From Bacillota bacterium (GTDB lineage: Bacteria > Bacillota > Sulfobacillia > UBA995 > UBA9673): a stretch of 41,687 nucleotides of DNA. This document shows, piece by piece, positions 6,146-12,265 of this stretch. The position numbers and the translations under genes are program-made. The stretch's first letter is position 1. Each line of letters begins with the position of its first letter. The DNA lies in contig QZJP01000097.1 in the NCBI GenBank assembly GCA_003599345.1, forward strand, positions 1 to 41,687, given 5' to 3'. Below the pieces are notes generated by a model that saw nothing but the letters and a program-made list of their open reading frames with translations, had not been told where the DNA came from and ran no database searches.

Positions 6146-6962
6146 AGCGAACCGGTCCTGGCCCGGACGTTCGCCGGGCTCGTCACCGGGGACTCTCCAT
6201 CTGGTGGCGACGCCCATAGGCAACCTGGAGGACGTCTCGGCTCGGGTCGTGCGTCTTCTCGGGGAGGCCGACGTCATCGCCGCGGAAGACACCCGGCAGA
6301 CGAGGAAACTCCTCTCCCATCTCGGCCTTCATACGCCGCTCGTCTCCTACCACCAGCACAGCGGGCCTTCACGCGCGGCGGAGTTGCTCCGGCGGCTGGA
6401 GGACGGGGAGGAGGTGGCTCTTGTCAGTGACGCCGGGACCCCGGCTATCAGCGATCCCGGTTGGTCGCTCGTGAGCCTGGCGGTCGAACGCGGCATCCGC
6501 GTGTCCCCGGTTCCCGGTCCGTCGGCTCTGATTCTGGCGTTGTGCGGCTCAGGGCTCCCGACCTCGTCCTTCATCTTCGAGGGCTTTCTCCCCAGGAGGC
6601 CTGGGCCGAGGCGGAGGCGCCTTTCGGAGTTGTCGAGTTCGGGTGTCACGCTCGTCTTCTACGAGTCTCCGCACCGCATCCTGGACGCCCTTGAAGACGT
6701 GGCGGAGACCCTCGGAGACCCGCCGGTCGCTGTGGCGCGCGAACTGACCAAGGTGCACGAGGAGTTCCTGAGGGGCAAGGCCTCCGAGGTCCTCGGAGAG
6801 CTCCGAGCCCGGGCGGCGCGTGACGGCAGGCCGCTCGGGGAGTTCACCGTGGTTGTGGCGAATCCGGGCGGGCGACGCGGTCGCGGCGCGGCCGGCGGCA
6901 AGGCACCCCGCGGCGACGAAGCGCCCGCGGCCCAGGGCCACGGGCGCTCCACCAAATCCTAA
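6138..6962 (+). CDS. rsmI: 16S rRNA (cytidine-1402 2'-O)-methyltransferase
   Basis: Tetrapyrrole-methylase-fold enzyme that methylates the 2'-O of C1402 in the 30S decoding centre using S-adenosylmethionine. Diagnostic blocks are LVATPIGNLEDVS, AAEDTRQTRKLL, LVSDAGTPAISDPG and VPGPSALI. FYESPHRI follows in the second subdomain. About 274 residues, normal length, with an Arg/Gly-rich tail after about 245. Start is GTG at 6138 with GGAGG five bases upstream, inside the end of ricT. It is the last plus-strand gene of the tmk operon and converges on abrB 21 bases later. No clear terminator lies between them. Confidence 0.94.
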   Translation: MTRANRSWPGRSPGSSPGTLHLVATPIGNLEDVSARVVRLLGEADVIAAEDTRQTRKLLSHLGLHTPLVSYHQHSGPSRAAELLRRLEDGEEVALVSDAGTPAISDPGWSLVSLAVERGIRVSPVPGPSALILALCGSGLPTSSFIFEGFLPRRPGPRRRRLSELSSSGVTLVFYESPHRILDALEDVAETLGDPPVAVARELTKVHEEFLRGKASEVLGELRARAARDGRPLGEFTVVVANPGGRRGRGAAGGKAPRGDEAPAAQGHGRSTKS

Positions 6963-6983
6963 AGCGCCTGAAGCTGGCGGTCT

Positions 6984-7232
6984 CTAGACGGCTTTGCTGT
7001 GCATGGCCTCCATGCAGTTGCGGCATACCTTCTTGCCCATGAACGTATCGACGTTATGGGCGTTGCCGCAGAAGATGCAGGCCGGTTCGTACTTCTTGAG
7101 GATGATCTGGTCCGCGTCCACGTAAATCTCCAGAGCGTCCTTCTGCTCGATATCGAGTGTTCGGCGGAGTTCAATAGGAATGACGACACGCCCGAGCTCA
7201 TCTACCTTGCGAACAATGCCGGTGGACTTCAT
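6984..7232 (-). CDS. abrB: AbrB-family transition-state regulator with C-terminal CxxC zinc-finger-like tail
   Basis: An 82-residue DNA-binding protein. The N-terminal swapped-hairpin domain (residues 1-47) is classical AbrB: STGIVRKVDELGRVVIPIEL, then DALEIYVD. The C-terminus differs from B. subtilis AbrB. It has C52-xx-C55 and C70-xx-C73, which could bind zinc, a form seen in many clostridial AbrB proteins. Start taken as ATG at 7232. An in-frame TTG one codon earlier sits better spaced from AGAAGGGG, so translation may begin there. A strong promoter lies about 50 bases upstream. It is expected to repress post-exponential genes, and often its own promoter. Confidence 0.93.
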   Translation of the reverse strand: MKSTGIVRKVDELGRVVIPIELRRTLDIEQKDALEIYVDADQIILKKYEPACIFCGNAHNVDTFMGKKVCRNCMEAMHSKAV

Positions 7233-7283
7233 CAAGCTGCATCTACCCCTTCTTCTACAATCTTCGACACAGCACCTAGCGAC

Positions 7284-7312
7284 AAGATACCAGGGGTGCC
7301 AGATTAAGTCAA
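7284..7312 (-). promoter_or_regulatory. Sigma-A promoter of abrB
   Basis: On the minus strand TTGACT (7312-7307) and TATCTT (7289-7284) are separated by 17 bases. Transcription would start near 7277, giving a leader of about 45 bases before the ATG. Confidence 0.8.
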
Positions 7313-7325
7313 TCCCTGGAAGTCA

Positions 7326-7356
7326 TTTCGCGGGCGGGAACTCTCGCCTGGCGAAA
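7326..7356. repeat. Imperfect 31-bp inverted repeat upstream of abrB
   Basis: TTTCGC at 7326-7331 mirrors GCGAAA at 7351-7356. The inner GGGCGGG and CTCGCCT arms pair with two G-T pairs and one bulged base, leaving a 4-base loop. It sits about 14 bases upstream of the abrB -35 box, where an activator or repressor could bind. It could instead act as a hairpin in an RNA. Confidence 0.55.
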
Positions 7357-7679
7357 CATAACTATATCTAAATCGCCGCTACTGCAAACGCGAGGGACCG
7401 TGCCCGAGACCAAGCTGCCTGATGGCGGTTTGTCGAACTGGAAACCTACGGTTCTACGCGGTTTCTCCTATTCCTTCTAGGGTTTCCCCTGCTTGGGTGC
7501 CTGAGCCACGGCGGGCCTCGGCCCGATCAACCGGACAGGTTTGTGGGCCCCCGCGACGACCGGAGAGCCTGGGGACCCGAGGCCCACGTGAGACCACGAC
7601 CCCACTGGGGACGATAGGGACAAGGGAGGGACCCCCGGCGTCCAGAATGGACCGGAGGAACGGGAAGGAGACCATCGCT
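7357..7679. other. Intergenic region between abrB and the tRNA-binding-domain gene
   Basis: No convincing gene. It holds a 7-bp inverted repeat (7543-7549 with 7581-7587) and short GC stems at 7512-7525 and 7600-7610. There is no T-box signature (no TGGNACCGCG) and no recognised riboswitch core. In B. subtilis a complete metS gene would occupy this space. No catalytic-domain remnant such as HIGH or KMSKS is recognisable. Confidence 0.5.
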
Positions 7680-8006
7680 ATGACCATCAGCATCGACGAG
7701 TTCGCAAGAGTCGATTTGAGGACGGCCAGAGTGCTCGAGGCCGACCGGGTCGAGCGCACCGACAAGCTCCTCCGGCTCCGGATAGACGTGGGTGGCGAGG
7801 AGCGTCAGATAGTCGCCGGCATCGGCGCCCACTACGAGCCCGGAACGCTAGTCGGCCGCACCATCGTCATTGTCGCCAATCTCGAGCCTGCCACCATCCG
7901 AGGCGTCGAATCCAACGGAATGCTCCTCGCGGCCCTGCACGAGGGCCGGCTCGCCGTTCTCACCACGGACGGGGGCGACTTCCCGCCCGGGGCCCAGGTG
8001 AGGTAG
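7680..8006 (+). CDS. Stand-alone tRNA-binding domain (MetRS C-terminal / Trbp111-like)
   Basis: A 108-residue OB-fold domain matching the C-terminal extension of MetRS (MetG beta region), CsaA and Trbp111. Recognisable features are DFARVDLRTARVLEADRVE-like strands (residues 5-25), a central RQIVAGIGAHYEPGTLVGR and the conserved ESNGMLLAA. Such domains dimerise and bind tRNA non-specifically through the elbow. Start is ATG at 7680 with AAGGAG 9 bases upstream. In B. subtilis the same slot, just before tatD, holds the full methionyl-tRNA synthetase. Here the catalytic part is missing, so the synthetase must be encoded elsewhere. It may act in trans as a tRNA chaperone. Confidence 0.88.
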   Translation: MTISIDEFARVDLRTARVLEADRVERTDKLLRLRIDVGGEERQIVAGIGAHYEPGTLVGRTIVIVANLEPATIRGVESNGMLLAALHEGRLAVLTTDGGDFPPGAQVR

Positions 8007-8015
8007 GGGAGCGCC

Positions 8016-8861
8016 GTGAGGCTGTTCGACACCCACTGCCACCTCATAGACCGTGCCTACGCCCAGGATATTGACCGGGTGCTCGACCGGGCGTGGAGGG
8101 CAGGGCTGGCCGGGGCTACCTGCGTCGGGTACGACCTTAGTTCCTCACTCGCGTCTGTGTCCCTCGCCGGCCGCGACGCGCGGCTCTGGGCGGCGGTCGG
8201 CGTCCATCCCCACGACGCCTCCCGAGTCTCGGGGGAGGACTTCGAGAAGCGGCTTCGGGAGATGGCGCGGGATGACAAGGTGGTGGCCATCGGAGAGACG
8301 GGCCTTGACTTCTACCGCGACCTCTCTCCTCGACCAGCCCAGCGGGAGGTGTTCCGGCGCCAGGTCAGGCTGGCGCTCGAACTGGGGCTCCCGTTGATAG
8401 TCCACGACCGGGACGCCCACGAAGAAACCCTCTCGGTCCTCCGTGAGTTCTACTCGTCGACCGCCGGAGACCGGCCCCGGGGGGTCATGCACTGCTTCTC
8501 GGGCGACACCGGGATGGCCGAGGCCTGCCTGGGCCTGGGGTTCTACATCTCCTTCGCCGGGCCCCTGACGTACCCGAAAGCCGAGAAGGCCAGGAGTGTC
8601 GCGAGGGTCGTGCCCTGGGACAGGCTCCTTGTGGAAACGGACTGCCCGTACCTCTCGCCGCAGAGTCGCCGCGGCCGGCGGAACGAGCCGGCTCACGTGG
8701 CCGATGTCGTCGTCGCCCTCGCCGCCGTCAAGGGCGTACCGCCTGAGGAGGCCGCACGCCGCACCTCCCGTAACGCCCGGACGCTTTTCGGGTTGGCAGG
8801 GAAGGACCCCGGGCGGGTGAATCCCTCGCCTGCGAGTTCGAGGGGAGAGAAAGAGCCTTGA
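8016..8861 (+). CDS. tatD: TatD-family metal-dependent deoxyribonuclease
   Basis: A TIM-barrel hydrolase of 281 residues; family members are 3'-5' exonucleases acting on DNA. Metal ligands are visible as H7 and H9 of FDTHCHL, the Glu of IGETGLDF, the His of IVHDRD, the His of MHCFSGD and the Asp of VETDCPYL. GVHPHDA is also typical. Start is GTG at 8016 with AGGGGAG just upstream. It lies in the standard metG-tatD-yabE-ksgA order. The Pro/Ser-rich tail after about residue 262 is not conserved. The stop overlaps the GGDEF gene start (TTGA). Confidence 0.94.
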   Translation: MRLFDTHCHLIDRAYAQDIDRVLDRAWRAGLAGATCVGYDLSSSLASVSLAGRDARLWAAVGVHPHDASRVSGEDFEKRLREMARDDKVVAIGETGLDFYRDLSPRPAQREVFRRQVRLALELGLPLIVHDRDAHEETLSVLREFYSSTAGDRPRGVMHCFSGDTGMAEACLGLGFYISFAGPLTYPKAEKARSVARVVPWDRLLVETDCPYLSPQSRRGRRNEPAHVADVVVALAAVKGVPPEEAARRTSRNARTLFGLAGKDPGRVNPSPASSRGEKEP

Positions 8862-10051
8862 GGGACACCGGGCCCCCGTCCCGGCCGACCGCGGGAACCC
8901 TCTCCGGGCTTACCCCTTTTCAGGAGCCGGACAGACGGCAGAAGAGTCTTTTCATTGTCGGTCTCCACTGGGGCATCATCGCTCTTGCTCCCATATTGAC
9001 CCTGCTCAGCGGGCGGGCGACCCACCCGGCCGTCTGGTACATCCTCGGCGCCTTCGTCCTGTTCACCGCGGCCCTGCAGGCGCTCGTCGGCCTCCGGCTC
9101 CCTGAGCGCGCCCTGCCCGCGCTCGGCTTCGGAGTCCTCATCGCTGACTTGTTCCTGGTTACGGCGCTTGTCTGGGCGAGGGGGGGACTGGCCAGCGACA
9201 CCTACCATTTGTACTACCTGGTCATCGTGGGCGCGAGCATCCTGTTCGGGGTCAGGGAAGCCGTGGGGTTCGCGGCCGCGAGCGGCCTGCTCTACGGGGC
9301 TGTTCTCTGGTGGGACGCCGGACCGGGGGTCATCGAGCGGGTGGCGATAAGGACGGTCTACTTCGTGCTCATCGGACTCGCCGCCGCCTACCTGTCAGCC
9401 CGCGAAGCCCGCCAGAGGACGGCCCGGGTCGAGGTCCAGCGCCTCCTGTCGGAAGTCCAGCAGGCTCACACAGAGCTCAAGATCCACGCGCGGGAGATGT
9501 CCCAGAGAGCCGTTACCGACGGGCTGACCGGCCTGTATAATCACACCTACTTCCACCGCCGCCTCTAGGAGGAACTCAGCCGCGCCGCCAGGTACGGTCG
9601 CCCGCTCTCCCTGCTCATGATGGACCTCGACGATTTCAAGGCCTACAACGACTCGAGCGGGCACCTGGCGGGCGACAACGTGCTTGCCCGGGTGGCGCGC
9701 GAGATCACGGGCTGTGTGCGAAGTGTGGACGTGGTCTGCCGGTACGGAGGCGAGGAGTTCGCGGTCATCATGCCCGAGACCGACAGCCGGGCGGCGGTCG
9801 CCGCTGCCGAACGAATCCGGGAGGTGGTGGCCGGTTCGCCGGCCGGGGTCGGGGAACCCATCGCGGGGCCCGACGGGTCGGAGGGCGGTCCCACCGTCTC
9901 CATCGGGGTGGCGACCTACCCGAACGACGCCGCCGGCCGGGTGGCCTTGGTGGAAGCAGCCGACCGGGCGCTCTACCTTTCCAAGAAGCGCGGGAAGAAC
10001 GTGGTCACCGTGTGGACCGCCGCTGGGTCGCTCCACAGCCCCGGCCGCTGA
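8858..10051 (+). pseudogene. Membrane-bound GGDEF diguanylate cyclase interrupted by an in-frame TAG
   Basis: The reading frame is continuous apart from TAG at 9566-9568 (codon 237). Residues 1-236 start at a TTG overlapping the tatD stop. They form about six membrane helices, then a coiled coil (about 182-215), then the first GGDEF block DGLTGLYNH. After the TAG the same frame continues with EELSRAARYGRPLSLLMMDL and the GGEEF active motif (near residue 296). An RSVD inhibitory site lies five residues before GGEEF. Thus every catalytic element is after the stop. An internal ATG at 9617 could make only a truncated domain lacking the first helix. The TAG stands where family members have Gln or Glu, consistent with CAG or GAG to TAG. 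Recent nonsense mutation, sequencing error or read-through are the options. Confidence 0.85.
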
Positions 10052-10120
10052 GCGAATTCCGGACGCCGTGCGGCCCAGCCACCGGGCGACCGGGCACAGG
10101 GCGGCCCTACCTCTCCCGCC

Positions 10121-10245
10121 CCGCGCACATAGGCCCCGCGCGGCCTTGGGGATACTCCAAGGAAGGCAGGTCCTACCAGCATCTGTAAAAGGTGCTTGCG
10201 CAGGAAAGGAGCCGGATTCCAGAGAAGAGCCGGCATGTCCTTTCC
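10121..10245 (+). ncRNA. Candidate structured leader upstream of the 3D-domain gene
   Basis: Four hairpins follow each other: 10121-10126 with 10138-10143; 10144-10149 with 10157-10162 (7-base loop); 10178-10183 with 10191-10196 (7-base loop TGTAAAA, one G-T pair); and a long one, 10203-10210 with 10238-10245 continuing into 10211-10215 with 10230-10234, with a 3-base bulge. I do not recognise a named riboswitch or T-box. In GC-rich DNA some pairing arises by chance, so the RNA status is tentative. Confidence 0.35.
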
Positions 10246-10307
10246 GGGAGAGTGGCAAGCTGCGTACGGTCCCGTGGATGCTCAACCTTCCAGCCTAGGG
10301 GGTAGCC

Positions 10308-11330
10308 GTGAGCCAGGGTCTCTTCCGTTCGCCGGTCTCCTACACCCAACGCGTGCTCTTGGCGGCCCTCGTCGTAGCCGCCATCCTCTCGGCCTGGTTT
10401 GGAGGAGGGCCCTGGTTCCAGAGGCAAGTGAGCATCCTGGTCGACGGCGAGGCGGTGGTGGTCAAGACGCGGGCCGAGACGGTGAGGGCGGCCCTCACGG
10501 TCGCCGGGGTGACGATCGGTCCGAGGGACGTGGTCATCCCCGAGCCCGGGACTCGCATCACCGGCGACACAGTCGTTGAGGTCAGGCGGGCGGTACCGGT
10601 GATCTTCTGCCTCGACGGACTCGAAATGAGGGTCTTGTCGGCCGCGTCCACGGTCGGCGAGGTCCTGGAGGCTTCGAGGGTGCCGGTAAGGCCCTCCGAC
10701 CGGCTCGACCCTCCACGCGGTTCTGTCGTCACACCCGGGCTCAGGGTGACCGTCACGCGCGTGGTCAACTCCTACCAGCACCGGGAGGATCCCATACCAC
10801 GCAAGGTCGTCCGGCTCGACGACATGAGCATGGACCTCGGCCAGACCCGCACGGTGCAAGAGGGTCAGGACGGCCTGCTTCACCGCTTGCTCATCGTCAC
10901 CTACGAGAACGCCGTCGAGGTGTCCAGCCGAGTCGTGTCGGAGACGGTGCTCGCTGAGCCGGTGGATAAGATAGTCCGCCACGGGACGGCGGGAACGATC
11001 GTCCGCGACGGTCAGACTATCAGGTTCCTGAAGGCCATGTCGGTCACGGCCACCGCGTACGACCCCGGCCCAATCAGCTGCGGAACCTCAGCCGACGGTT
11101 ACACGGCCCTCGGCCTCAAGGCGACCCGAGGGATCATCGCGGTGGATCCCCGGGTCATCCCGCTGTGGACCAAGGTCTACGTCGACGGCTACGGGTTCGC
11201 CGTGGCGGGCGACACGGGCTCGGCCATCAAGGGCGCCCGGGTAGACGTCTGCTTTGACACCTACGACGAAGCCGTCCGTTGGGGGGTAAGGCGCGTCAAG
11301 GTTTACATCCTGGAGCTGCCTTCGAGTTGA
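10308..11330 (+). CDS. yabE: YabE-like G5/3D-domain cell-wall protein
   Basis: A 340-residue exported envelope protein. One membrane helix or signal anchor lies at about residues 15-33 (RVLLAALVVAAILSAWF). Two DUF348-type ubiquitin-like repeats follow (about 40-90 and 97-150), then a G5-like segment, then a C-terminal 3D domain from about 245. The 3D domain shows the expected aspartates: VTATAYDPG, then VDPRVIPLWTKVYVDGYG, then GDTGSAIKGARVDVCF. Relatives (YabE, RpfB-like, MltA-fold) cut or remodel peptidoglycan. Start is GTG at 10308 after AGGGGG. The gene occupies the standard yabE position before ksgA; rnmV, normally between them, is missing. The stop overlaps ksgA by TTGA. A hairpin-rich leader precedes it. 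Confidence 0.9.
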   Translation: MSQGLFRSPVSYTQRVLLAALVVAAILSAWFGGGPWFQRQVSILVDGEAVVVKTRAETVRAALTVAGVTIGPRDVVIPEPGTRITGDTVVEVRRAVPVIFCLDGLEMRVLSAASTVGEVLEASRVPVRPSDRLDPPRGSVVTPGLRVTVTRVVNSYQHREDPIPRKVVRLDDMSMDLGQTRTVQEGQDGLLHRLLIVTYENAVEVSSRVVSETVLAEPVDKIVRHGTAGTIVRDGQTIRFLKAMSVTATAYDPGPISCGTSADGYTALGLKATRGIIAVDPRVIPLWTKVYVDGYGFAVAGDTGSAIKGARVDVCFDTYDEAVRWGVRRVKVYILELPSS

Positions 11331-12265
11331 CCCCCCCTCCGGAACCTACCCCCACGGCGCTTCTGGCGTCGCCGGCGTACGTCTCGGGCCTGGTGCGGTC
11401 GGGTCTGATAAGCCCGAGACGGCGACTCGGGCAGCACTTCCTGGTGGACAGCAACGTCCTGGAGAGAATTCTCGACGTCCTCACCGGCGGTGCCACTCTG
11501 CCGCGCGAGACCACTATCCTGGAGATCGGCGCCGGGCTCGGGGTGTTGACCGCCGCGCTGGCCGGCACCGGAGCCGGACGGGTCGTGGCCATTGAGAAGG
11601 ACCCCAAGCTTGCGGAGTTCCTCGTCCAGAACGTCGCCGGCCGTCCCGAGGTCGAGGTGGTCGTGGGTGACGCCCTGACTCTCGACATGCGGGCCTTGTG
11701 CGGCGGCGATTCGCTGGTGGTCGGGAACCTCCCGTACTCCGTCTCGACTCCGCTTCTTATGGCTATTCTGGAGCCTCCCGTATTCTGGCTCCGGGCCGTG
11801 GTGATGGTCCAGCTCGAAGTCGCCCGGAGGATTGCGGCTCCGCCGGGCGGGAAGGACTACGGGGCCCTGACCTTAGCCGTCAACGCCCTGGCCGAGCCGC
11901 GCGTGGCTTTCAGAGTGTCCCCGGCCTCCTTCTACCCCAGGCCCGGAGTGGATTCGGCCGTTGTCACGCTCCGCCGTCGGGCTGTCCCCGCCGGCGGGCT
12001 GGACGACGCGGGGCTCGCCCGGCTGAGAGCCGTGGTCCGGGCCGCCTTCTCCCACCGCCGGAAGACTCTCGCCAACGCTCTCTGCTCGGGGTTAGGCCTT
12101 GAGCGAGGCTGGGTCGCGGCCCTTCTCGAGCGGGTGGGTATCGACCCCTCCCGGCGCGGTGAGACGCTCTCCCTGGAGGAGTTCGTCCGGCTCCAGGAGG
12201 CTCTCGGCCCTCGCCTGGACCCGGCCGGGGCCGGCCCGCGACCACGCCCCGGCCGTGGGCGGTGA
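11327..12265 (+). CDS. ksgA: 16S rRNA (adenine-1518/1519-N6)-dimethyltransferase
   Basis: Dimethylates two adjacent adenines in helix 45 of 16S rRNA late in 30S assembly. Signatures: RLGQHFLVDSNVLERI, the AdoMet motif I LEIGAGLGVLT, the acidic VVAIEKDPKL, and the catalytic NLPYSVSTPLL. The C-terminal four-helix part has FYPRPGVDSAVV and AAFSHRRKTLANAL. About 312 residues; the tail after about 295 is Pro/Gly/Arg-rich. The start chosen is TTG at 11327, overlapping the upstream stop, with GGAG about 11 bases before; a slightly later start is possible because the first 25 residues are not conserved. Confidence 0.93.
   Translation: MTPPPEPTPTALLASPAYVSGLVRSGLISPRRRLGQHFLVDSNVLERILDVLTGGATLPRETTILEIGAGLGVLTAALAGTGAGRVVAIEKDPKLAEFLVQNVAGRPEVEVVVGDALTLDMRALCGGDSLVVGNLPYSVSTPLLMAILEPPVFWLRAVVMVQLEVARRIAAPPGGKDYGALTLAVNALAEPRVAFRVSPASFYPRPGVDSAVVTLRRRAVPAGGLDDAGLARLRAVVRAAFSHRRKTLANALCSGLGLERGWVAALLERVGIDPSRRGETLSLEEFVRLQEALGPRLDPAGAGPRPRPGRGR

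Follow-up and report, generated by a model that had tools for sequence, protein, structure and literature searches.

Bacteria commonly lose genes through nonsense mutations. Degenerate diguanylate cyclases of Shigella flexneri are the nearest published parallel found for the gene described here, as far as the available part of that report extends (PMC11327459). In that part of the report, nonsense-mutated dgcE, dgcQ and dgcN still produced c-di-GMP, and bands of full-length size were obtained for dgcQ and dgcN despite their mutations. As in the present gene, premature stops in dgcE, dgcM, dgcN and dgcQ are combined with intact active-site motifs, and these genes are intact in other Shigella, as are the orthologs here. 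The Shigella stops, however, precede the GGDEF domain, and their product has been measured (PMC11327459, same part), whereas the present stop lies inside the domain and is known from sequence. The present case would matter only if a full-length product were demonstrated, in which case what was observed in Shigella would reach a distant lineage as well.

The read-through protein shares with membrane-anchored GGDEF proteins (PF00990, TIGR00254) a full domain, the GGEEF motif, an RxxD site and an N-terminal membrane segment, and differs from them in that the normal product lacks the domain because of one in-frame TAG. The reading that we favour, and hold to be probable though well short of certain, is that a dispensable diguanylate cyclase gene has recently acquired a nonsense mutation. 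The finding is ordinary, a probable pseudogene of recent origin or else a single-base error of the assembly; it has little significance as it stands, and mutation and error are indistinguishable from one assembly.

The interrupted gene and its surroundings

The window, the whole 41,687-nucleotide stretch that was analysed, corresponds to contig C9 in a 2.32-Mb assembly that comprises 101 contigs and is 82% complete. The features relevant to the interrupted gene are as follows.

8016-8861, plus strand: upstream neighbour, a TatD-family DNase
8858-10051, plus strand: interrupted membrane-anchored diguanylate cyclase gene, TTG start, TGA end
8948-9397, plus strand: N-terminal membrane segment, weakly PilS-like (hydropathy peaks, residues 31-180; Pfam match below cut-off)
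9509-10000, plus strand: GGDEF domain, split by the TAG (profile positions 1-160 of 161)
9566-9568, plus strand: in-frame TAG, codon 237, close to where the GGDEF domain begins and at a position that varies
9617-10051, plus strand: reading frame from the first in-frame start (ATG) past the TAG, 144 amino acids, whose product would lack the domain start
9719-9760, plus strand: motifs RSVD (RxxD inhibitory site) and GGEEF (active site), residues 288-301
10308-11330, plus strand: downstream neighbour, a YabE-like protein with DUF348, G5 and 3D domains
11279-12265, plus strand: rRNA adenine dimethylase (KsgA-like), which served as synteny anchor

The TTG start of the cyclase gene overlaps the stop codon (TGA) of tatD, and the downstream DUF348/G5/3D neighbour is YabE-like. 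The usual place of metG, just upstream of tatD, holds no metG in this contig, while 20 of 24 relatives' stretches have it there. Positions 6985-8006 contain instead a minus-strand AbrB-like gene (named by eye), followed by some 450 bases in which no gene is clear and then by a small stand-alone tRNA-binding-domain gene at about 7680-8006.

The original prediction was of a single frame cut by one TAG inside a GGDEF domain. This was confirmed by the frame itself (8858-10051, plus strand), which has exactly one internal stop, the TAG at 9566-9568, and by the Pfam GGDEF profile (PF00990), which the read-through protein matched with 148.3 bits over residues 218 to 381 (profile positions 1 to 160 of 161). 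Taken alone, the segment beyond the stop still matched with 121.6 bits from profile position 22, indicating that the TAG lies inside the domain, about 20 positions from its start. Both predicted motifs were present, with GGEEF at residues 297 to 301 and RSVD, five residues before it, at 288 to 291. Six membrane helices had also been proposed; a membrane segment was found, and the number six is not firmly shown, with a hydropathy scan giving five hydrophobic regions (31-54, 61-79, 88-106, 121-145 and 158-180) when adjoining peaks were merged by hand and the Pfam 6TM_PilS profile (PF25323) scoring below its cut-off of 27 bits for both the whole protein (21.9 bits) and the part before the stop (24.2 bits). 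Among the 21 NCBIfam families matching the read-through protein, only the GGDEF domain model reached its cut-off.

Four GGDEF matches were detected in the assembly, and a stop was present in one, the gene described here. PilZ and EAL gave no match in the assembly, these families being detected in just 5 and 6, respectively, of 14 control genomes. Searches with Rfam at the gathering score yielded no family beyond two tRNAs in the window, and the single match within 6900-10700 was at chance level.

Orthologs, rate of change and the residue at codon 237

A class-wide search of 154 genomes with a match threshold of E <= 1e-45 gave a match to the cyclase in 11, including the window's genome, which alone had the stop. 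Five of the ten other matching genomes were shown to be syntenic, with a stop-free ortholog in the same place by tatD and yabE or ksgA: one from the same family (G002), one from the same order (G005) and three from the same class (G031, G050 and G077). In three more (G047, G025 and G008), the stretches fetched around the matches had no match to tatD, yabE or ksgA; G151 and G021 were left out of the synteny count. The original prediction had proposed comparison with sister genomes for a sense codon at the position of the stop, and all five syntenic orthologs have one, encoding Ser in G002 and Asp in the other four. Hence, within the set of genomes that was searched, only the window's own has the stop. 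The nearest ortholog, that of G002, has 53% identity, and the set of 60 relatives contained none of the same genus.

The gene was absent from 17 of 20 further stretches around ksgA in relatives, all 17 showing tatD with yabE or ksgA; genomes lacking it between these neighbours included one of the same family (G001) and three of the same order (G004, G006 and G007). In the other three stretches (L164, L173 and L182) tatD is not seen, and these were left out of the count. These absences demonstrate that the gene can be lost, and it is an optional gene with a patchy distribution among relatives. Among the GGDEF matches listed, five others were flagged as containing one stop (G032, G004, G011, G028 and G010); in the four that were read (all but G004) the stop is the gene end, past the domain.

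Maximum-likelihood trees were made with FastTree, one small tree per gene, from five genomes each (four for yabE). The branch lengths for the window's genome and G002 were 0.471 and 0.433 for the cyclase, 0.314 and 0.290 for tatD, 0.384 and 0.354 for yabE, and 0.315 and 0.352 for ksgA, corresponding to ratios of 1.09, 1.08, 1.08 and 0.89. As the cyclase had changed no faster than in the sister lineage, a long period of relaxation is not indicated and the break is either recent or an error. By these protein branch lengths, normal constraint seems to have acted on the gene during the greater part of the period since the split from G002, recent constraint not being finely measurable because the closest ortholog has no more than 53% identity. 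The rates fit a recent mutation, an assembly error or read-through alike and do not choose among them. The three options offered originally (a recent change, a tolerated one or an error) were thus the right set, with recency backed by the unaccelerated protein change and read-through based on recoding left unsupported.

The residue at the stop had been expected to be Gln or Glu. In 94 related loci, all spanning position 237, the residues were E in 23, R in 12, D in 11, K in 11, F in 6 and Q in 5, the other 26 loci being spread over ten further residues. Glu is therefore the commonest, and E or Q occurs in 28 of the 94, but the position is variable and the orthologs have Ser or Asp. With 16 residues found there, the stop fell at a position that varies, and the expectation of Gln or Glu was too narrow. 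Of the 94 loci, 80 were the best matches kept from a capped scan over 584 relatives and were mostly GGDEF paralogs from other phyla. Positions 221, 256 and 261 were invariant over the same 94 loci, and none of the 94 had a stop at position 237.

Mutation, error or residual expression

Under the favoured reading of a recent nonsense mutation, a vertically inherited membrane-anchored diguanylate cyclase gene between tatD and yabE would have gained one nonsense mutation. Translation would stop at codon 237, leaving a stub that has the membrane segment but no catalytic domain, and this gene copy would make no cyclic di-GMP. The gene would be dispensable in the lineage, with three other stop-free GGDEF genes remaining in the assembly, and the rest of the frame would be undecayed because the change is recent. 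The stop in the sequence, the intact orthologs, the patchy presence and the lack of any sign of TAG recoding or of faster change are observed; that the base is real and the stub inactive we infer. The motifs are all intact, which fits an error or read-through too.

An error in base calling or consensus, or a mixture of strains, would leave the gene intact in most or all cells, and we regard this explanation as unlikely but deserving of real weight. The assembly is fragmented and incomplete, the GGDEF domain is undecayed and the stop is the sole one of its kind in the 480 kb surveyed. Local assembly trouble is conceivable, as the contig lacks metG upstream of tatD and no good match to a methionyl-tRNA synthetase was found in the assembly (best, 36.9 bits). 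Against an error, 12 other window genes aligned unbroken, for the greater part of each gene, with the syntenic contig from G002, although these genes were picked as open frames, so that a break could be missed, and nothing at the TAG base itself pointed directly to an error.

Low-level read-through of the TAG by near-cognate tRNAs, with the leaky stop setting a low dose of full-length cyclase, appears improbable. Frame and motifs are preserved on both sides of the TAG, codon 237 tolerates many residues and, in the available part of PMC11327459, the Shigella genes dgcE, dgcQ and dgcN yielded c-di-GMP in spite of their stops. The frame would, however, look alike soon after any mutation, the 94 related loci contain no such stop, and the intact release factor 1, the lack of a PylS match and the lack of a CUA tRNA in an incomplete tRNA set also speak against read-through (see below). 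Read-through is thus without support of its own. Its more specific form, by analogy with what is suggested for some Shigella cyclases a tolerated leaky stop giving a small, condition-dependent amount of full cyclase and acting as a dose setter, would be more doubtful still.

Restart of translation past the stop, giving a separate GGDEF fragment, is very improbable. Such a fragment would begin at ATG 9617, retain GGEEF and RxxD and match the GGDEF profile with 108.9 bits from position 37, and an AGGAGG lies directly at the stop (9567-9572). Shigella dgcM and dgcQ, which have a methionine next to the stop, each gave two products, according to the available part of the report (PMC11327459). Here, however, the AGGAGG sits 44 bases before the ATG. 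A spacing of this length is too far for normal initiation. Furthermore, the fragment begins MMDLDDFK, without the conserved DGLTGLYN stretch, and hence should not fold.

Decoding of TAG

Proteins with pyrrolysine or another residue encoded by a stop codon (PMC1914089, available part) resemble the present case in that the frame stays open after the TAG, but the cyclase differs in that TAG is not conserved in its orthologs, no PylS match and no CUA tRNA were found, and the position of the stop is variable. Release factor 1 was intact, with 543.5 bits against a cut-off of 423.25, and release factors 1 and 2 were both present above their NCBIfam cut-offs. PylS had no match in the 82% complete assembly. 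In the set of relatives, 47 of 61 genomes gave a PylS match at E <= 0.001 and just 3 were above the cut-off, none of these in the window's family or order. At 28 Rfam tRNA matches ARAGORN gave names to 27 tRNAs, none of them with a CUA anticodon; as many tRNAs are missing from the assembly, this absence is weak when taken alone.

A first survey of codon usage suggested recoding, with TAG in 14 of the top 16 rows listed; the stops among all of its 1396 candidates were TGA in 728, TAG in 527 and TAA in 141. This hint was dropped when the best frame was demanded on both sides of the stop, which left 21 stops flanked on either side by coding stretches in a single frame, in 480 kb or about a fifth of the genome. 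Twenty of these had the next in-frame start within 8 codons, like gene junctions (15 of the 20 being TAG), as judged by eye and from the next start. Fifteen places listed by the first survey had been read, and these include only some of the 20. The stop in the cyclase gene was the sole exception, its next start being 17 codons away. None of 59 ABC-transporter domain matches held a stop. All of these tests fit TAG being a normal stop codon in this organism. The use of TAG as a sense codon, by pyrrolysine or other recoding, can be set aside as extremely improbable, since the TAG share of the same-frame stops (16 of 21) and the three PylS-positive genomes are offset by 15 other TAG sites that look like ordinary gene ends with a new gene after, by the position of those genomes outside the window's family and order, and by the release factor, PylS and tRNA results for the window's own assembly.

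Several minor observations were made during the survey. In same-frame gene pairs the first gene mostly ends in TAG, though TGA is the commonest stop overall; this excess is probably a matter of geometry, as TGA tends to overlap the following ATG, placing the second gene in another frame. Six of the 21 same-frame stops were in one stretch (L149; G000:C13:1-20000), where the short sequences look phage-like. A tRNA-like element of 90 bases (L135, positions 1501-1590; G000:C7:20677-20766) was considered as a possible suppressor; its loop, CTAGCTA, would by our reading give anticodon AGC and not CUA. This element was not called by ARAGORN, scored 34.2 bits with Rfam against a gathering score of 29 bits, and is flanked by the complementary arms GGCTGGCGGC and GCCGCCAGCC.
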